Part shown: positions 1,578 to 42,490 of the stretch, in pieces
Numbering within the stretch: the first letter of the stretch is position 1
Layout of the letters: each line of letters opens with the position of its first letter
Assembly: GCA_020060385.1 (NCBI GenBank)
Contig: JAGVAH010000040.1
Location: forward strand, 1-49,683
Direction: 5' to 3'
From: Syntrophobacterales bacterium
GTDB lineage: Bacteria; Desulfobacterota; Desulfobaccia; Desulfobaccales; 0-14-0-80-60-11
DNA length: 49,683 bases
The notes under the pieces: model-generated
What the model was told of the DNA's origin: nothing
The model's input: only the letters and a program-made list of their open reading frames with translations
The model's database searches: none
Made by a program: the position numbers and the translations under genes

Positions 1578-2135
1578 TTATTTTTTGAGGTCTTTGATGA
1601 TCCACTCCGCCGCGTCCAGGAGGTCCCCGGCGATATGCGCGGGCTGCACCTCCCAGGTGCGTCCCCAATGCTCATATTCCCCCCGGCCGTAACCGGTGAG
1701 CACCAAGATCCCTTTGACGCCGGCATGCGCCCCCGTTTGCATATCCTTGTACCGGTCCCCCACCACGTAGGAACGGGACAGGTCAATATCCAACTCCCGG
1801 GCGGCCTGGAGAATCAGCCCCGGTTGGGGCTTGCGGCAGGCGCAGCCCTCTTGGGGACCATGGGTGCAGGTATAGAGGCCATCTAGATGCGCGCCTTCTG
1901 CGGCCAGCAGATTTTGCATACGGGCGTGCACTTCCTCCACCAGGGAAACAGGGAAATAACCCCGGGCCCCGCCGGATTGGTTGGTGACCACCACCACCTT
2001 GACTCCTGCGTCATTGAGGCGCTTGATGGCCGCGGCGGTGCGGGGCAGGAGCACGAAACGGCTCAGGTGGTTGATGTAGCCCATCTCCTCATTGATGGTG
2101 CCGTCCCGGTCCAGGAAAACCCCAATCTTTTTCAT
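1578..2135 (-). CDS. gmhB: D-glycero-beta-D-manno-heptose 1,7-bisphosphate 7-phosphatase
   Basis: A 185-residue HAD-superfamily phosphatase that removes the 7-phosphate of heptose bisphosphate in ADP-heptose synthesis for the LPS core. It starts MKKIGVFLDRDGTINEE, with the catalytic DxDGT motif (nucleophile Asp at residue 9), followed by the VVTNQSG motif II region, the Cys/His zinc loop CTHGPQEGCACRKP that marks GmhB, and the VGDRYKDMQ motif near the C-terminus. The ATG at 2135 overlaps the stop of the upstream LpxK-WaaF gene in an ATGA, indicating translational coupling. The frame extends 36 codons further upstream into that gene, but the family N-terminus fits the 2135 start. Confidence 0.93.
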   Translation of the reverse strand: MKKIGVFLDRDGTINEEMGYINHLSRFVLLPRTAAAIKRLNDAGVKVVVVTNQSGGARGYFPVSLVEEVHARMQNLLAAEGAHLDGLYTCTHGPQEGCACRKPQPGLILQAARELDIDLSRSYVVGDRYKDMQTGAHAGVKGILVLTGYGRGEYEHWGRTWEVQPAHIAGDLLDAAEWIIKDLKK

Positions 2136-4582
2136 AAATCTCCCTGCAGCCACTTCCGGGCTGCGTCGGTAACTTCCTCCACGCTGATATCCAGGAGGCA
2201 CTGGTACTCCCGGTCGCAGGTCCGCCTGAAGCAGGGACTGCAAGGCAGGGGATGGTGCAGCACCGTGGCCCGGGGGGTAAAGGGGCCGGTGGCCGCCGGG
2301 TCGGTGGAGCCGAAGATGGCGACGAGGGGCACGCCCAGGGCCGCGGCCGCGTGCATCAGGCCAGAATCATTGGTAATCAGCAACTTCAAGTGGGTCAAGA
2401 TTCCCAGGGCCTGGCGCAGGCCGGTGCGCCCCACCAGGTCCAGGGCCTCCGGGAGGCTGGCCTGCACCTGCGCGCCCGCGTCCCGGTCCTCCGGCCCTCC
2501 TAAAAGGACCAGGTGGGCGCCCCATTCTTTTTGCAACTCCCGGCCCAGGGCCGCGAAGCTCTCCGGCGGCCAGCGTTTGGCCGGGCCATAAGCCGCGCCC
2601 GGGCTCAGTCCCACCCAGGGCCCTGCCGGTTCACCGCTCTGCAAAAGGGCAGCCGCGGCCTGGACTTCCTCCTCCTGTAGATACAGTCGGGGCGGGGTGA
2701 AGGCGGCCACGCCGCCCAGACCCTGGAGCACTCCCAGGAGATAATACACCGTGTGCAACCCCGCCAAACTCTGTGCGCCGCTTACGGCCAAATTCAGCAA
2801 AGGCCCCCGGGCGTCGGTGTTGTACCCCACCCGGAAACGGGCCCCAGCCAGCCACAGGCCCAGGGCGGCTTCCCAGGAATTGGGCAGGGCCAGGCCCAGG
2901 TCGAAAGACGGTTTTCTGTTTTCTGTTTTCTGTTTTGTGTGGTCTGCCTGCCATTGGCGGAGGCGATAAAGAGTACGCCATTTCGACGAGCCGTGAGGAT
3001 ATTCCACCACCTCCGCCACCCCGGGGATACCGGGGAAAAGGGGGGCCACCCGGGGCGCGGCCAGGACCGTGATCTCCGCCTGGGGGCAGAGGGTCTGCAA
3101 CCCGGCCAGGGTGGGCAGGCCCATGACCGCGTCCCCCACCCAATTGGGCGCCCTGACCAGGATGCGCCGCACCGCGGCCGGATCACCGGCAAACCTCCCC
3201 CTTACCGTCAACTGCTGCCAGCGCTGCCGCACTTCGAGGGGGATGGGGTGAAGGGCTTGGCTTTGATCCTTCTGAGCAGCCCTGGAAGAATCTGTGAAGG
3301 TGGCGTTATCACCCCCCTTTTCTAAAGGGGGGTAGGGGGGATTATTATCAGCCCCTAATAATCCCCCTAAATCCCCCTTTAAAAAAGGGGGACTTAAAAA
3401 TTTCTTTTCGGAAGAATCAGAAAAATTACCATGCGACTTATGAAGTATATTGGCATAGACCTTCGCGCCCTGGCCGCGTCCGGTCTTCTCCGCCAAAACT
3501 TTTAAAATCCTCTCCCCTCCCCCCTCCTCCAGGCAGGCCTCCACCTCCAGCACGTACAGGGGCAGGGGGTGGGGCCACTTTTCCCCCAGGCGGGCCCAAT
3601 CCTTGGCGGTGGTGATCAGACCCGGGGCCCCCAGGGAGGCAGCCTTTTTTACCAGTGCTTCCAAGTCCTTAGCCTGAAAAGCATAATGGTCGGGGAAGTC
3701 CTGGCAGCCTGGTAGATCCACCCCCAGGTCCAGCAGGGTGTCATAAAAGACCCGGGGCCGGGCCAGGCCCGCGAACGCTAATAACTTCTGGTTTTTCAGG
3801 TTCTCCAGGGGTATTTCCCGGTCTGCCGGCAAAAGCCGGGCCCGGGTGGGGAGGATGGCCCCGGTGAGCACCAGGTGGCCGGGGAATTTCTCTTGGAGAT
3901 ACTCCAAGCGCTCCTGATGGCGGCCGTGCTGGAAGCGGGTGAGGACCAGGATGTCTGCCGCCTGTAGAGTACCCACCGGCTCCCGTAAGGGGCCCCGGGG
4001 CAGGAGGTGGCCGTTCCCCAAAGGCGATTCCGCATCCAAAAGCACCACGTCCAGGTCCCGGTGCAGTTGGAAGTGTTGGAAACCGTCGTCCAGCAAAAAG
4101 AGGTCGGGCTGCACCTCCCGCCAGGCTGCCAGACCCGCAGCATAGCGCTGTGGCGCGGTATAGACCGCCGCGCCGGGGAGTTCCCGGGCCAGCCAGTACG
4201 CCTCTTCCCCTACCTCCGGGGGTTTTTCGTAAATTTGCCTGCCGTCGGAGATGCGGGTCACCCCTTTGGCCCGGCCCCCATAGCCCCGGCTGAGGATGGC
4301 TATTTTGTAACCCTGGCCCTGAAAGAGCCGGGCCAGGCAGGCCGTTATGGGAGTCTTGCCCGTGCCCCCCACGGCGAGGTTGCCCACGCTGACCACCGGC
4401 GCGGGGAGGCGTCTGACCGTCAGCCAGCTCCGGGCATAAAATGCCCGGCGGGTCCGGGCCCCCAGGCCGTAGCACGCAGCCAGGACCCCGGCCGCGGCCT
4501 TGAGGGGCAGGCCGGGCCGCGAGGCCTCATCCCGTTCCTGGAGGCGATCAAAGAGGTGATGGCAAGAAAAGAGCATATCCAA
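2132..4582 (-). CDS. lpxK-waaF: LpxK-WaaF fusion: tetraacyldisaccharide 4'-kinase joined to heptosyltransferase II-like GT9 domain
   Basis: One uninterrupted 816-codon frame joins two LPS enzymes. Residues ~1-370 are LpxK, the lipid A 4'-kinase, with its P-loop at residues 67-78 (GNLAVGGTGKTP) and the SRGYGG motif after it. Residues ~455-816 are a GT9 heptosyltransferase close to WaaF (VRAPNWVGDAVMGLPTL, LSPGAAYGPAKRWP, TNDSGLMHAAAALGVP). The joining segment (~residues 376-445) contains SPPFLKGDLGG and NNPPYPPLEKGG, which are encoded by a palindromic DNA repeat that also occurs between genes at 8961-9048. A second short insertion in the WaaF half (QKTENRKP) is encoded by a 7-bp tandem repeat. 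Separate translation of WaaF from an internal GTG cannot be excluded. The gene is coupled by ATGA to gmhB. Confidence 0.88.
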   Translation of the reverse strand: MDMLFSCHHLFDRLQERDEASRPGLPLKAAAGVLAACYGLGARTRRAFYARSWLTVRRLPAPVVSVGNLAVGGTGKTPITACLARLFQGQGYKIAILSRGYGGRAKGVTRISDGRQIYEKPPEVGEEAYWLARELPGAAVYTAPQRYAAGLAAWREVQPDLFLLDDGFQHFQLHRDLDVVLLDAESPLGNGHLLPRGPLREPVGTLQAADILVLTRFQHGRHQERLEYLQEKFPGHLVLTGAILPTRARLLPADREIPLENLKNQKLLAFAGLARPRVFYDTLLDLGVDLPGCQDFPDHYAFQAKDLEALVKKAASLGAPGLITTAKDWARLGEKWPHPLPLYVLEVEACLEEGGGERILKVLAEKTGRGQGAKVYANILHKSHGNFSDSSEKKFLSPPFLKGDLGGLLGADNNPPYPPLEKGGDNATFTDSSRAAQKDQSQALHPIPLEVRQRWQQLTVRGRFAGDPAAVRRILVRAPNWVGDAVMGLPTLAGLQTLCPQAEITVLAAPRVAPLFPGIPGVAEVVEYPHGSSKWRTLYRLRQWQADHTKQKTENRKPSFDLGLALPNSWEAALGLWLAGARFRVGYNTDARGPLLNLAVSGAQSLAGLHTVYYLLGVLQGLGGVAAFTPPRLYLQEEEVQAAAALLQSGEPAGPWVGLSPGAAYGPAKRWPPESFAALGRELQKEWGAHLVLLGGPEDRDAGAQVQASLPEALDLVGRTGLRQALGILTHLKLLITNDSGLMHAAAALGVPLVAIFGSTDPAATGPFTPRATVLHHPLPCSPCFRRTCDREYQCLLDISVEEVTDAARKWLQGDL
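2911..2938. repeat. heptanucleotide tandem repeat (GTTTTCT)3-4 inside the WaaF domain
   Basis: Three exact GTTTTCT units and a fourth GTTTTGT unit lie in the coding sequence of the fused heptosyltransferase. They encode the QKTENRKP insertion between an alpha helix and the conserved FDLGLALPNSW strand. The unit length is not a multiple of three, so gain or loss of one unit would shift the frame. Confidence 0.9.
3312..3392. repeat. CCCCCTTTTCTAAAGGGGG-type palindromic repeat inside a coding region
   Basis: This stretch contains two hairpins, CCCCCCTTTTCTAAAGGGGGG and CCCCCTTTAAAAAAGGGGG, joined by GGGGGATTATTATCAGCCCC and AATAATCCCCC. Its left half nearly matches the intergenic copy at 8961-8991. 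It is read in frame as the linker of the LpxK-WaaF fusion, so a normally intergenic repeat has been incorporated into a gene. Confidence 0.85.
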
Positions 4583-5277: not shown

Positions 5278-7089
<1,812 letters not shown>

Positions 7090-7170: not shown

Positions 7171-7267
7171 CAGTGAGCAGTGAGCGGTGAGCAGTGAGCA
7201 GTGAGCAGTTAAAGGAGAGGGCTGGCCACATTTCTTACTGCTTACTGCTTACTGCTCACTGCTCACT
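7171..7267. repeat. opposed arrays of 7-bp repeats (AGTGAGC / TTACTGC) forming a large inverted repeat
   Basis: From 7171 to 7210 there are about six AGTGAGC/GGTGAGC units. From 7235 to 7267 there are TTACTGC and TCACTGC units, which are the reverse complement of GCAGTAA/GCAGTGA. A 24-bp spacer separates the arms, so the RNA or single strand could form a long hairpin. The right array includes the stop codon and last codons of waaA. Confidence 0.85.
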
Positions 7268-8562
7268 CCCTTAATCAATCCCACCACCAACTCTGCCTGG
7301 CGGCGGGCGGCGCCCTGATGGGGGGTGAGCGCGTCTTGGGCCCGTTGGCCCTGGACCCGGCGCCGCTCCGGGTGCTCCAGAAGGTCCCGGAGCGCGGCAG
7401 TCAGGGAAGGGGCGTCCTGGATCATGATGCCGGCTTTCCCGGATGCCAAGATGGCCTGTGCCCAGCGGAAGTTATTGATATGTAGGCCATAAATGGGGAC
7501 CAAGCCCCAGGCCGCGGGCTCCAGGATATTTTGGCCGCCATGGGGGATTAGGCTGCCTCCCACGAAAGCCGCGTCCGCCAGGCCATAGAGGGAAAAGAGG
7601 TCCCCCACGGTATCGATGAGGACCACGGGGGCAACCCGGGTCTCCTGGCGGGACTTGAGGCGGCTCCAGAGGTGGAAGGGGAGACCGTGTTTGTCCAGCA
7701 AGCGTCCCAGCTCCGGGGCCCGTTCCGGATGGCGGGGGGCCAGGAGGAGCAGGAGGGCAGGGTGGGGGTCCCTTAATTTTTGATAGGCCTCCAGGACCGC
7801 TTCTTCTTCCCCGGGGTGGGTGGACGCGGCCAGGAAGACCGGGGCCGGTCCGGGCTCCCCGGGGGCTTGGATCAGAAGACGGAATTCTTCGATATTCACC
7901 GTTTTCCGGGAGTCCAGGAGGCGGTCGATCTTCAGGTTGCCGGTGAGGTGGAGCCTGCCGGGGGGGAGTCCCAGGCTGCGAAAGCGTTCGTAATCCTGGG
8001 AGGAGCCCGCGGCTATTAGCTCTATATTATTAAGTATATCAATTAAATACCGACCATATTTAACATATCTTCTGAAGCTTTTGTCCGACAAGCGGGCATT
8101 GACCAGGGCCAGGCGCACCCCCCGGGCCCGGGCCTGGGTCAGAAAGTTGGGCCAGATCTCCGAATCCAGGGCCACGAAGAGGTCCGGGGACAGATGCGCC
8201 AGGTAACGGCGCACTGCCCAGGGCACGTCCAGGGGGAAGTAGCAGACCTCTGCGCCCAAGGGTTCAAAATGCCGGCGGGCCACGGCCTGGCCGGTCTCCG
8301 TGCCGGTGGTGACGATGAACCCGGCCTGGGGCAGCAGGCGTTGCAGTTCCAGGAACAGGGGCTGCGCGGCCAGGATTTCCCCCACGGACACGCCGTGGAG
8401 CCAGATGCGGGGACTGCCGGGCGGGGGAGGGGGGGGCAGCCTTAATCCCAGGCGGGGCCAAAAACTCTCCCCCCGGCCCCGGCGCTTGAGGTGCCAATAG
8501 AAATAAGGCCAGCCCAGGAGGCCGGCCAGGGTGGTGAGGGCTTGATAGAGGCGTAGGAGCAT
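7249..8562 (-). CDS. waaA: 3-deoxy-D-manno-octulosonic acid (Kdo) transferase
   Basis: A 437-residue GT30 glycosyltransferase that adds Kdo from CMP-Kdo to lipid IVA at the inner membrane. Diagnostic stretches are the N-terminal hydrophobic anchor, IWLHGVSVGEILAAQPL (the Glu is the conserved catalytic-base region), TTGTETGQAVA, the VNARLSDKSFRRY motif, LTGNLKID, and the C-terminal GGSLIPHGGQNILEPAAWG sugar-nucleotide site. The ATG at 8562 is preferred over a TTG nine bases upstream; neither has a strong ribosome-binding site. The stop lies within the 7-bp repeat array. It heads the minus-strand LPS block. Confidence 0.93.
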   Translation of the reverse strand: MLLRLYQALTTLAGLLGWPYFYWHLKRRGRGESFWPRLGLRLPPPPPPGSPRIWLHGVSVGEILAAQPLFLELQRLLPQAGFIVTTGTETGQAVARRHFEPLGAEVCYFPLDVPWAVRRYLAHLSPDLFVALDSEIWPNFLTQARARGVRLALVNARLSDKSFRRYVKYGRYLIDILNNIELIAAGSSQDYERFRSLGLPPGRLHLTGNLKIDRLLDSRKTVNIEEFRLLIQAPGEPGPAPVFLAASTHPGEEEAVLEAYQKLRDPHPALLLLLAPRHPERAPELGRLLDKHGLPFHLWSRLKSRQETRVAPVVLIDTVGDLFSLYGLADAAFVGGSLIPHGGQNILEPAAWGLVPIYGLHINNFRWAQAILASGKAGIMIQDAPSLTAALRDLLEHPERRRVQGQRAQDALTPHQGAARRQAELVVGLIKGVSSEQ

Positions 8563-9045
8563 GAGGTACAATTTTATTTGTTAGTAGTAGGGTGCGTTGC
8601 ACGCACCATTTGTGGCTGCGGGGGGTATGCCACAGCCTCGGGTTCTCCACTTTTGGGAACCCCCTTTAGATGCCAAGCTGTGCTTGGCAAGCCCTTTCTA
8701 GAAATTGGGCACCCATTGATTTTCAGAGGTGCCCAAGCCCAGCTTGGGCGAAAAATCGCCGTTCCCAAGTGCAACTTGGGAACGAGAAATGAAAGTAGTA
8801 GGGTGCGTTTCACGCACCATTAAGGGCTGGTGAAAATATACCACAATCCCTGTTTCGCCTCTTTCCTCCCTCTACCCCCTTGGGGGGAGAGGGCCGGGGT
8901 GAGGGGGGGATTGGGAATGAAAAATGTAACCTTTTCAGCTCCTTTCTCAGTACTTAAAGTCCCCCTTTTCTAAAGGGGGATTTAGGGGGATTTAAAAGCG
9001 CTTCTACAATCCCCCGCGCCCCCCCATTTAGATAAGGGGGGAAAA
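8563..9045. other. intergenic region packed with palindromic repeats
   Basis: No gene is visible. It holds GGTGCGT hairpins at 8591-8607 and 8802-8818, a GCCAAGCTGTGCTTGGC hairpin near 8674, the AAGCCCAGCTTGG / TTCCCAAGTGCAACTTGGGAA pair at 8729-8790, a CCCCTTGGGGGGAGAGGG/GGTGAGGGGGG element at 8866-8912 and the CCCCCTTTTCTAAAGGGGG element at 8961-9048. Such clustering suggests a landing zone for repeat elements between convergently unrelated genes. Confidence 0.8.
8729..8790. repeat. intergenic repeat with CCAAGCCCAGCTTGG and CCCAAGTGCAACTTGGG hairpins, copy 1
   Basis: Two adjacent stem-loops, followed by ACGAGAAAT. A nearly identical unit lies at 10810-10870, sharing the hairpin pair, spacing and the trailing ACGAGAAAT. 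Confidence 0.85.
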
Positions 9046-9048
9046 TCA
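8961..9048. repeat. CCCCCTTTTCTAAAGGGGG-type palindromic repeat, intergenic copy
   Basis: It begins CCCCCTTTTCTAAAGGGGG followed by ATTTAGGGGGATTT, then a degenerate opposite arm ending ATAAGGGGGG. It matches the repeat found inside the lpxK-waaF coding region at 3312-3392 and ends at the stop of the methyltransferase gene. Confidence 0.85.
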
Positions 9049-10683
9049 TAACAGCGACTCCTGCTTATCCCCCGGGGACCCCCGGCGGCGGGCCGCCTTT
9101 TTGAAGGTGCCCGAGGGCGCGAAGCGGGGGTACTCCAGTTCTTTGCCTCCCAGCAACTCGGCGATGGTCAATATCTGCAACCGGGGGAAGCGGTGGCCGG
9201 GGAAATGGGCCGGCTCGTAGAAGCCCGCGGCCGCGGCCTCCTCCTGCATGGGCCGGGTGGGGGGCTTGAGGCTCAGAAGCGCGCCGATGGGGGCCTTTTC
9301 CCGCTCCAGCACCCCCTTCAGGTCCCGCACCTGGGCCGCCGTGACGTGGCCGCTCTTCACCTGGATGACCACTTTTTTGTATTTGCCGGAGTTGTCGTCG
9401 TCGAAGTGGATGACGCCGTCCACCCCGGAATCCGGGCCCTTTTTCTTGTCCTGCGCTGGGCGCGCGTCCACCAGACCCAAGGCCCACCACTCGAACTGGT
9501 GGCGGTTGACTGCCGCCAGGGCCTGGGCGCTGGTCAGGTCCGCGGGCTCGCCGATGACCTCATAGGCCGCGAGCTCCGGACCGAAGGTGTCATGGAGGCG
9601 GTTTTTAATCAGAGTGATGGCCAGGTGGGTGATGTCGATGCCCAGCCAGCGGCGTTGCAGCCGCTCCGCGGCGATGAGCGCGGTGCCGCAGCCGCAGAAG
9701 GGGTCCAACACCAGGTCTCCTTCGTTGCTGGAGGCCCGGATGATGCGCTCCAGCAGGGCTTCGGGCTTCTGGGTGGGGTAGCCCAGGCGTTCTTTCGCTT
9801 GGGAGTTAATTGGAGGTATATCATTCCATGAATCTTGACTTGGGACCCCTTTAACTTCATCCAAATATCGCTTATATGCCGGCCAGCCACCACTAGGTGG
9901 CCAATAAATCCTTCCTTCGGAATCCAATCTTTCCAATGTTTCTATTGAAAATTTCCAATGGTTCCCTTTAGCAGATACATCAAATCCACGCCATGATTGA
10001 CCTGATGACCCTTTCCGTATTCCCATTGCTGTGAGGTTATCCGACCTCCAACGCCGTCCATCTGAATCAATTTGAGAATAATGCGATTTAAGATATTTTT
10101 GATCATATTCAGTGTATGAAGGATTCCAAATATACTCAGAAGACTTTGTATAGAAGAGGATTACATCGTGAACCGGACCATAACGCTTGGCGCTACTATG
10201 GGCGCTGGTTCTCTTCCAAATAATTTCATTCCGGAAATTGACAGGACCGAAAATTGAATCAAGGAGCATCCTTAGATAATGACTCGCAGTGGGATCACAA
10301 TGCAGATAAATACTCCCTGTGGGCTTCAGGACCCGGTGGAGTTCCACCAGGCGCACGGCCATCATGGTCAGATAGGCCATCATGTCGTTGGTCCCTAAAA
10401 AGCTGCGCAGCGCCTGGAGGAGGTCGGAGAGCTTCCGTGGTCCCAGGGTCACCACTTCATGGTACGCGGCCTCGGATTCCAAGCCCCAGTGCCAGGTGTC
10501 TTCGAACGCGGTGATCTGGGCCGCGGACTTCTCCCCGCTCTTTTCCGCGAACAGCACGTTGTAGGTGGCCTTGGAGTTGAAAGGGGGGTCCAGGTAGATG
10601 AGGTCCACGCTGGCAACCGGGATGTGCTCCCGGAGGATCTCCAGGTTGTCCCCGAAAAAGAGCTGGTTCTTCCAGGCCGTCAT
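9046..10683 (-). CDS. DNA methyltransferase (beta-class, DPPF) with C-terminal Mrr-like PD-(D/E)xK nuclease domain
   Basis: A 545-residue protein. The amino-methyltransferase catalytic motif DLIYLDPPF is near residue 30, and the AdoMet motif DPFCGCGTALIAAERL is near residue 325; this order (motif IV before I) defines beta-class N4-cytosine/N6-adenine DNA methylases. The stretch between them is the target-recognition region. The last ~130 residues hold GVDGVIHFDDD (about 421) and VVIQVKSGHV (about 440), a D...QxK pattern typical of Mrr-like restriction nuclease folds. I chose the ATG at 10683 because AGGAG stands 7 bases upstream; a start at 10713 lacks this. It has no neighbouring restriction or specificity gene, so modification and cleavage may be combined in one chain, or the nuclease domain may be regulatory. 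DNA for the middle section is far more AT-rich than the ends. Confidence 0.87.
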   Translation of the reverse strand: MTAWKNQLFFGDNLEILREHIPVASVDLIYLDPPFNSKATYNVLFAEKSGEKSAAQITAFEDTWHWGLESEAAYHEVVTLGPRKLSDLLQALRSFLGTNDMMAYLTMMAVRLVELHRVLKPTGSIYLHCDPTASHYLRMLLDSIFGPVNFRNEIIWKRTSAHSSAKRYGPVHDVILFYTKSSEYIWNPSYTEYDQKYLKSHYSQIDSDGRRWRSDNLTAMGIRKGSSGQSWRGFDVSAKGNHWKFSIETLERLDSEGRIYWPPSGGWPAYKRYLDEVKGVPSQDSWNDIPPINSQAKERLGYPTQKPEALLERIIRASSNEGDLVLDPFCGCGTALIAAERLQRRWLGIDITHLAITLIKNRLHDTFGPELAAYEVIGEPADLTSAQALAAVNRHQFEWWALGLVDARPAQDKKKGPDSGVDGVIHFDDDNSGKYKKVVIQVKSGHVTAAQVRDLKGVLEREKAPIGALLSLKPPTRPMQEEAAAAGFYEPAHFPGHRFPRLQILTIAELLGGKELEYPRFAPSGTFKKAARRRGSPGDKQESLL

Positions 10684-10809
10684 GGGTCTGCTCCTGTGGT
10701 CCGCAAGTGCCATTATAATAAAAAGAAATTAATCGGATAATCAAGAGGTTATTTAGATATTTGTCCGGTTTCCAAGGGAGGCTTGTTGAATCTTTCCCTT
10801 TTATCCAAG

Positions 10810-10933: not shown

Positions 10934-11021
10934 TGTCATTCTGAGGGAGCGGAGCGACCGAAGAATCTAGCGTTGGGGATGTTTAGATTCGCAACGAAGC
11001 TTCGCTCCGTTCAGAATGACA
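10934..11021. repeat. TGTCATTCTGAG inverted-repeat element, copy 1
   Basis: An 88-bp element with TGTCATTCTGA at one end and TCAGAATGACA at the other, and inner arms GGAGCGGAGCGACCGAAGAATCT versus GAAGCTTCGCTCC. Related copies occur at 18903-18973 (degenerate), 33599-33671, 41740-41811 and 42323-42413. Confidence 0.88.
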
Positions 11022-11098
11022 AAAAAACGGCAGGCGCAGGCTTCAGCATTCTTTACAATAATAAATAGTTAAAGAATATTATTAATAGTGATTATCAA

Positions 11099-15465: not shown

Positions 15466-15804
15466 GGGGTCAGGGGGGCAGGGGTCAGGGGGCAGTGATC
15501 AGTGGCCAGAGGTCGTAGGTCGTAGGGGCGGGCATCTCGCCCGCCAGCCGCAAAATATTGGTAGCGCAGGCTTCATTAGCTTGGGAGCGGAGAAAAAGCG
15601 GTAGCACAGGCTTTCCAGCCTGTGCGGAATATCGAGGCGGGCGAGACGCCCGCCTACGGACAGGAGCCTTCTTTTTTGTGATTCATTAGTAATGTAGGGT
15701 GCGTCTCACGCACCACTTTTGGCGCGTAAGACGCTCCCTACGAAGAAAATAAGAAATGGCGGGCAGTGCCCGCCCTGCATTCTGACCACTGGCCACTGAC
15801 CACC
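15466..15804. other. intergenic region with several hairpin repeats
   Basis: No gene is visible. It contains GGCGGGC/GCCCGCC hairpins near 15530 and 15640, a GCACAGGCT-TTCC-AGCCTGTGC stem at 15604-15625 and a GGTGCGTCTCACGCACC stem at 15698-15714. The words CACTGGCCACTGACCAC just before 15805 are another short-repeat motif also seen near 12750. Confidence 0.7.
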
Positions 15805-18736: not shown

Positions 18737-18858
18737 ATACCATTTCGCAATCAAAAGACATTGAACTGTAGGGGCGAATCTTGTATTCGCCCTGTGCGGG
18801 CGGGCGAACACAAGGTTCGCCCTTACAAGAAGAATGCCGTTAGATTGCGACTTGGTAT
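18737..18858. mobile_element. MITE-like 122-bp element with TIRs ATACCANNTCGCAATC, copy a
   Basis: The left end ATACCATTTCGCAATC and the right end GATTGCGACTTGGTAT are inverted repeats matching at 14 of 16 positions. The interior carries GGGGCGAATCTTGTATTCGCCC and GGGCGAACACAAGGTTCGCCC hairpins. No coding capacity. The copy at 31474-31595 has the same length and nearly the same sequence. Confidence 0.85.
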
Positions 18859-18902
18859 TAGACATCAGGAAAATTGCCGCCCCTCTGAACTTCCCTTCCA
18901 GG

Positions 18903-25942: not shown

Positions 25943-25950
25943 GGAACTAG

Positions 25951-26013
25951 TGTAGGCGGACGAACACCAGGTTCGCCCCTATAAAAAAATTGCTTTTGGA
26001 TTGCGACTTGGCG
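25951..26013. mobile_element. partial copy of the ATACCA/TCGCAATC MITE-like element
   Basis: Only the right half is present: GGCGGACGAACACCAGGTTCGCCCC through GGATTGCGACTTGG, matching the right arm of the copies at 18737 and 31474. The left arm is missing. Confidence 0.7.
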
Positions 26014-26103
26014 TCAGAGGGGAACAGGCAGAAAAGAACCGGGGACCAAGAGATTACCAGCTGCTCAGCCACTAACCACTGATTATTGATTACTGATCAT
26101 TGG

Positions 26104-31473: not shown

Positions 31474-31595
31474 ATACCATTTCGCCATCAAAAGACATTG
31501 AACTGTAGGGGCGAATCTTGTATTCGCCCTGTGCGGGCGGACAAACACAAGGTTCGCCCCTACAAGAAAGTTGCCCTTAGACTGCAACTTGGTAT
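31474..31595. mobile_element. MITE-like 122-bp element, copy b
   Basis: Left end ATACCATTTCGCCATC and right end GACTGCAACTTGGTAT form imperfect terminal inverted repeats. Length equals copy a (18737-18858), and the interior GGGGCGAATCTTGTATTCGCC and CACAAGGTTCGCCC hairpins are the same. Confidence 0.87.
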
Positions 31596-31756
31596 CAGAT
31601 TCTTTGGATTGCGTTGATACTTAAAAAAAATCCCTGCGACTGGCCAGAAAAGTTCCCCCCACCCCAAAGTTCAGCCGCTAAAAAGCCGATGTTAACATGC
31701 AAACGTGGTATATCTTTGCCGATGGATATTTGGTAAAGGTTGCCTCATAATCTCGC

Positions 31757-33569: not shown

Positions 33570-33705
33570 ATACCAAGTTGCGGTCAAACGAGTAATTTTG
33601 TCATTCTGAGGGCAGCGAAGAATCTCAAAATACGAGATTCTTCACTCCGCTGCGCTCCGTTCAGAATGACAGCTAAAGATTACTTCTTTGATGGCAACTT
33701 GGCAT
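33570..33705. mobile_element. nested element: MITE-like outer arms around a TGTCATTCTGAG core
   Basis: ATACCAAGTTGCGGTC at the left and CAACTTGGCAT at the right are the terminal repeats of the 122-bp family, but the interior is a TGTCATTCTGA...TCAGAATGACA element (33599-33671). The normal GGGGCGAAT hairpin interior is absent. Confidence 0.75.
33599..33671. repeat. TGTCATTCTGAG inverted-repeat element, copy inside outer arms
   Basis: TGTCATTCTGAGGGCAGCG to CGCTCCGTTCAGAATGACA, with the inner stem GAATCTC-AAAATAC-GAGATTC. Same family as 10934-11021 and 42323-42413. Confidence 0.85.
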
Positions 33706-42055: not shown

Positions 42056-42177
42056 GAAACCCTGTCCCCGTCAAAAAGCATTAAAATGTGGGGGCGAATC
42101 TGGTATCCGCCCAGTGCGGGCGGGCGAACACCAGGTTCGCCCCTGCAAAAGAATTGCTGTTGGATTGCGGTTTGGTA
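42056..42177. mobile_element. MITE-like element, copy d (degenerate left end)
   Basis: Right arm GGATTGCGGTTTGGTA matches the family; the left arm (CCTGTCCCCGTCAAAAAGCA) is degenerate. Interior GGGGCGAATCTGGTATCCGCC and GGGCGAACACCAGGTTCGCCC are conserved. Confidence 0.8.
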
Positions 42178-42295
42178 CCAAGTCGCAATCTAATGACGAG
42201 GAATCGTAGGGGCGGACCCATGTGTCCGCCCTAAAAAGGGGGCACACGCGGGTGCGCCCCTACAGAAAAATTGCCGTTAGATTGCGACTTGGTAT
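42176..42295. mobile_element. MITE-like element, copy c, abutting copy d
   Basis: TACCAAGTCGCAATC at the left and GATTGCGACTTGGTA at the right are perfect 15-bp inverted repeats. The left end shares the bases TA with copy d, so the two elements meet head to tail. The interior hairpins differ (GGGGCGGACCCATGTGTCCGCCC). Confidence 0.88.
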
Positions 42296-42322
42296 GAGAA
42301 CTCTGTGAAAGTCCTTATAATT

Positions 42323-42413
42323 TGTCATTCTGAGGGAGCGGAGCGACCGAAGAATCTCGCATTAACTGTAAATACGAGATTCTTCACTGCGCTTCGCTCC
42401 GTTCAGAATGACA
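42323..42413. repeat. TGTCATTCTGAG inverted-repeat element
   Basis: TGTCATTCTGAGGGAGCGG and GCGCTTCGCTCCGTTCAG with terminal AATGACA; the inner arms include CGAAGAATCTCG and CGAGATTCTTC. Close to the copy at 10934-11021. Confidence 0.87.
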
Positions 42414-42490
42414 GAAGAGAGATGTGCCCAGAGGTCTCGATTTGCTATCAAAGGCAGGCTCTTGTTCCCCTGCTTAAGGGGCACTCCCCG

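Follow-up and report, generated by a model that had tools for sequence, protein, structure and literature searches.

Can an intergenic palindromic repeat become the joint between two enzymes, and is it what brought them together? The question is raised by a minus-strand frame in the window analysed here (the whole stretch of 49,683 nucleotides), which is uninterrupted for 816 codons at 2132-4582 and in which the original prediction had placed a fusion of LpxK and WaaF. The fusion is real: both domains are intact and it recurs in related genomes. The outermost start codon is TTG (4582); translation probably begins with the ATG of 4576-4574, which gives 814 aa and at whose position the relatives within the genus also begin. 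Profile matches identify the neighbouring genes as encoding MsbA, a Kdo transferase and a heptose bisphosphate phosphatase, and the locus is therefore an LPS gene cluster (Table 1). Repeats of AGTGAGC type lie as inverted arms at 7172-7267, between msbA and the Kdo transferase gene. A DNA methylase (N6_N4_Mtase) is encoded at 9046-10713, with a C-terminal part matching Mrr_cat and NA-iREase1 (Pfam); by these domains the product is possibly a one-protein restriction-modification enzyme.

Table 1 Features of the lpxK-waaF locus and of the palindromic element, in window coordinates
Feature	Position	Strand	Remarks
lpxK-waaF fusion gene	2132..4576	-	814 aa from ATG 4576; open to 4582 with TTG
LpxK domain	3497..4486	-	aa 33-362; P-loop GGTGKTP intact
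Linker	3260..3475	-	aa 370-441; predicted disordered, pLDDT <50
Three-hairpin palindromic element in linker	3312..3398	-	87 bp; read in frame as LSPPFLKGDLGGLLGADNNPPYPPLEKGG
Probable remnant of second interspersed repeat type	3266..3292	-	GATTCTTC...GCTCAG; by eye
N-terminal extension of WaaF (HPIPLEVRQRW...)	3173..3250	-	conserved in fused and split relatives; predicted folded
WaaF (heptosyltransferase II) domain	2150..3166	-	aa 473-811
Second in-frame insert, inside WaaF (DHTKQKTENRK)	2909..2941	-	short CAGAAAACAGAAAAC-type repeats; pLDDT <50
Second copy of element	8954..9041	+	intergenic; opposite orientation to linker copy
MsbA	5278-7089		profile match; neighbour of fusion gene
Kdo transferase	7249-8571		profile match; neighbour of fusion gene
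Heptose bisphosphate phosphatase	1578-2243		profile match; neighbour of fusion gene

The Pfam LpxK profile (PF02606) matches residues 33-362 (E 4e-85, 286 bits vs. a cut-off of 27) and NCBIfam TIGR00682 (lpxK) gives 207 bits vs. 92; the other half of the frame is matched by NCBIfam TIGR02195, heptosyltransferase II (221.9 bits vs. 134.6), and by Pfam Glyco_transf_9 at residues 556-790. A structure model of the fusion, built from 16 sequences, has a mean pLDDT of 80.5 and contains two confident domains, whose placement relative to each other is unsettled (pTM 0.52). Its LpxK half superposes on the solved LpxK 4ehy with Z 36.1 (307 residues, rmsd 2.0) and its WaaF half on the solved WaaF 1psw with Z 33.9 (316 residues, rmsd 2.5), and pLDDT falls below 50 at residues 1-4, in the linker (370-441), in the second insert (548-558) and at 782-791. 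In an alignment with Aquifex LpxK, whose catalytic residues we take to be Asp99 and His261, the P-loop GGTGKT and His299 line up and the position of Asp99 is occupied by Glu126 (codon at 4205-4207), where G013 and relatives from genus g5 have Asp. An insert related to the DHTKQKTENRK of WaaF is present in six of six members of the genus, and the WaaF of G013 has a different insert close to this position.

Throughout the taxonomic order lpxK and waaF adjoin in this constant order, and a stop-to-stop ORF check was used to call the state of their junction in each genome. Among 22 genomes of the family the junction is fused in 11 (G000, G003, G004, G005, G006, G012-G016 and G021), split in seven (G008-G010 and G017-G020) and undecidable in four, owing to a contig end in G001 and to a missing or partial gene in G002, G007 and G011; all seven genomes of the sister family have separate genes. 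The fused genera are g1 (that of the window), g3, g4, g5 and g9, and the split ones g2, g6, g7 and g8. Six of 80 named loci examined are fused, all six already among the fused family genomes, and no frame spanning both domains was found in the rest of the phylum in 20 candidate loci examined among the matches listed. The element lies inside the linker, in frame, in all six g1 genomes that have the locus, and the alignment of relatives proposed with the original prediction thus finds both the fused junction and the repeat-bearing linker conserved in related genomes. Six fused genomes, belonging to g3, g4, g5 and g9, have no such element in the linker; in G021 the linker has, by eye, two other repeat types in frame. 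Split genomes have repeats here as well: the gap of G009 and G010 (g2) contains, by eye, a repeat of the same CCCCCTTT...AAAGGGGG kind as the element, with stops present, and other gaps contain, by eye, another type (G008) and yet another (G017 and G020). Judged from these sequences, the lpxK-waaF junction is a site of interspersed palindromic repeats in split and fused relatives alike.

The three-hairpin element is found in two copies in the window. It is present at both places where a repeat had been predicted, although 3312-3392 and 8961-9048 take in the cores only; the full copies, at 3312-3398 and 8954-9041, are 93% and 86% identical, respectively, to a consensus taken by eye from aligned copies. 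The unit of about 86-87 bases folds into three stems or one long stem, with z-scores of -5.5 as DNA and -4.6 as RNA. RNAalifold prefers one long hairpin to three, and covariation in the stems is weak (a double change at 2 of 24 pairs, in one sequence each). Rfam was searched for a described RNA family; each of the three matches was to a miRNA family and scored far under the gathering threshold. A search of the organism's own genome, also proposed at the outset, located the element, with at least 85% identity, in at least 40 places including the linker (the best 40 of 187 candidates being scored). Dozens of copies have 85-93% identity, and all 12 further genomes searched contain the element, G012 with one match among the matches listed. 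The fold z-scores and the high copy number in the genome show that the element does not arise by chance. The window also holds five copies of long interspersed repeats (69-126 nt, GTGCGGGCGGGCGAACAC...GTTCGCCC; 18737-18862, 25950-26018, 31474-31599 and 42057-42299) and copies of a GTAGGGTGCGTNNCACGCACC palindrome at 8583-8653, 8794-8864 and 15694-15723, two of them close together.

Frame and translation bear out the claim that the linker is repeat-coded, in frame and free of stops. Of 60 loci given to a frame test, two dispersed ones were dropped for want of an anchor match; the frame of the linker is open in all four linker copies scored and in 15 of 54 dispersed copies, so that an open copy is uncommon, not rare. 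The linkers of G003 and G006, which are outside these four, are open by translation. By eye, the linker copies of G000, G004, G005 and G001 have a centre one base longer than that of the commonest dispersed form, which meets a TAG in the last stem when read in this frame. Only five of the 54 dispersed copies sit in ORFs of at least 120 aa, none of the five with a Pfam match, and no further recognisable gene carrying the element in frame was found among the 54. The putative remnant of a second repeat type is less degraded in the linkers of G001 and G003, and probably derives from an interspersed repeat, GAGATTCTTC...TCAGAATGACA. This latter repeat is seen at 10978-11022, 33628-33672 and 42370-42414.

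The linkers of the six g1 genomes comprise 78 to 113 codons (that of G001 ends at the contig end), with neither stop nor frameshift, and their lengths change by multiples of three only. By its pN/pS of 0.86, vs. 0.35 for LpxK and 0.30 for WaaF, the 5' part of the linker is evolving almost freely. A neutral simulation of the linker frame, run with an open start, a star tree and one rate, returned small probabilities, a result overstated by these settings; chance open linker frames are less rare in high-GC relatives, e.g. g5. The 5' stem of the element has a pS of 0.11; every one of the 329 WaaF and 350 LpxK segments of equal length has a higher value. The centre has a pS of 0.51, similar to the surrounding gene. 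At the one control locus, an intergenic copy orthologous among G000, G004 and G005, the stems are conserved and the length differs by one base. The low pS of the stem and the conserved stems of the intergenic copy therefore suggest that this DNA, besides coding for the tether, is retained in its own right; from these comparisons, the conserved stems seem attributable to the element and the conserved frame to the gene.

It is possible, at somewhat less than even odds in our judgement, that the near-identity of the stems results from gene conversion by dispersed copies or from repeated re-insertion, and not from selection on the linker copy. Dozens of copies at the identities given above could serve as donors, and the stems of the orthologous intergenic copy are conserved too, but the linker copy of G000 is without several bases of the centre and loops that most copies in its own genome have, its longer centre is common to the linker copies of G004, G005 and G001, and in G004 the orthologous linker copy ties as its best match. 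Conversion confined to the stems would be compatible with these differences.

Whether the repeat made the fusion depends on the order of events. A tree of RpoB, part of RpoC, LpxK and WaaF (28 rows, 2568 columns) groups g1 with split genera (support 100/99) and demands two changes of state, either one old fusion and one loss or two fusions; from LpxK and WaaF alone the origin of the fusion is not settled. As g1 groups with split genera, it either retained an old fusion, since lost in the others, or became fused independently, and the repeat could have bridged the genes only in the latter case. The original prediction had the repeat removing the stop and the start between two adjacent genes. 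As a general cause of fusion this was rejected, six fused genomes having no element and G009 and G010 being split despite a repeat in the gap; within g1 the order of events may be either. There, insertion of the element, or recombination through it, would have removed the lpxK stop and the waaF start and joined the frames. Such an event seems to us doubtful, even though independent fusion in g1 is as parsimonious as retention (two changes each) and the split g2 genomes G009 and G010 have a repeat of this type between the genes: fusion occurs without the element in six genomes of four other genera, and 39 of the 54 dispersed copies are closed in the frame of the linker, so that the element brings a stop more often than it removes one. 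In g1, the element may have been cause, passenger or later arrival.

We consider that the frame encodes one bifunctional protein (probability about 0.75), in which a flexible stretch of about 75 residues tethers the LpxK kinase to the WaaF heptosyltransferase; as far as sequence can tell, it would function as a single polypeptide. An ATG found 41-49 codons upstream of the WaaF core motif in nine of 14 split genes is absent from all 12 fused or probably fused ones, which favours one polypeptide. The one frame might instead yield two proteins, by an internal start for WaaF or by a cut in the linker after translation. The linker is predicted to be disordered and therefore accessible to proteases, and G000 and G001 have a GTG in frame, six codons upstream of the WaaF core, whose ribosome site is weak; further in-frame GTG candidates occur in G003, G006 and G016. 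We regard this as improbable, since no internal start conserved across the fused genomes was found, in G004 and G012 no internal GTG has a ribosome site matching at four bases, and the ATG of the split genes is lacking. An artefact of assembly or sequencing can be practically dismissed: the fused kin are known from metagenome assemblies, but the same junction is found in assemblies of different names and on different contigs at 70-74% protein identity. Of the combination named beforehand as speaking against the fusion, relatives with separate genes together with a sequencing error, the former do exist, and the latter is excluded by the conservation of the fusion in related genomes.

For a single bifunctional protein the following course of events can be proposed. 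Read-through of the lpxK stop would have made the fusion possible; in g1, as the comparison of its genomes shows, one copy of the dispersed 87-bp three-hairpin element has been inherited within the fused frame. Repeats may be tolerated in the tether because only the frame needs keeping, the peptide itself being of little weight. Whatever conserves the stems would act on them as nucleic acid, and on the intergenic copy too, and the DNA would therefore be under two constraints, its own and that of the frame. LpxK and WaaF are inner-membrane enzymes of the LPS pathway, and their steps are non-consecutive because Kdo transfer and addition of the first heptose come between them. The tether would keep two membrane-associated enzymes together and in equal numbers. 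It is also conceivable, if rather unlikely, that the element is selected as an mRNA or DNA hairpin at the domain boundary in addition to coding for the tether, e.g. by slowing ribosomes during folding of LpxK. If this were true, a former selfish intergenic repeat would now work as the joint of an LPS enzyme.

By profile and fold, the two halves are members of LpxK (PF02606) and WaaF (TIGR02195), which to our knowledge are known only as separate proteins, and a literature search found no LpxK-WaaF fusion in print. Nor do we know of an enzyme fusion of this kind among the small mobile repeats of enterobacteria. These are described in PMC2759123 as having open reading frames and intragenic copies, with units of 103-168 bp; the present element resembles them as an intergenic repeat translatable within a gene, and differs in hosts and unit length. 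Rickettsia palindromic elements (RPEs) occur inside protein-coding genes (Ogata 2000, 2002, via PMC10969869) and, according to passages of that review, are about 150 bp long and found in many unrelated genes. The element is likewise dispersed, palindromic, in frame inside an intact gene and also intergenic. Unlike RPEs as these passages portray them (the comparison being one of descriptions), it is about 87 bp long and lies between two whole enzymes, and five of its 54 scored dispersed copies sit in ORFs of at least 120 aa, in contrast to the many unrelated genes given for RPEs (PMC10969869). REP palindromes, put at 20-40 bp in PMC3733652, share with it short length, palindromic structure and high copy number, the element being a longer unit with three stems. 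The features of the RPE kind seen here are many dispersed palindromic copies and a position in frame within an intact gene. Translated palindromic repeats are best known from Rickettsia, where, according to the review (PMC10969869), what they contribute to novel or altered proteins is still unexplored.

The present case places a translated palindromic repeat in uncultured bacteria of a phylum other than that of Rickettsia, within one family whose history can be read, the same junction being fused or split, with and without repeats. It shows a route by which DNA not selected for coding can link the enzymes of neighbouring genes, and it offers a natural test of whether the nucleic acid or the peptide is the reason why a coding hairpin repeat is retained. 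For the LPS pathway of these bacteria, the fusion pairs the kinase of lipid A with a later step, one of core-sugar addition, rather than with the next one.
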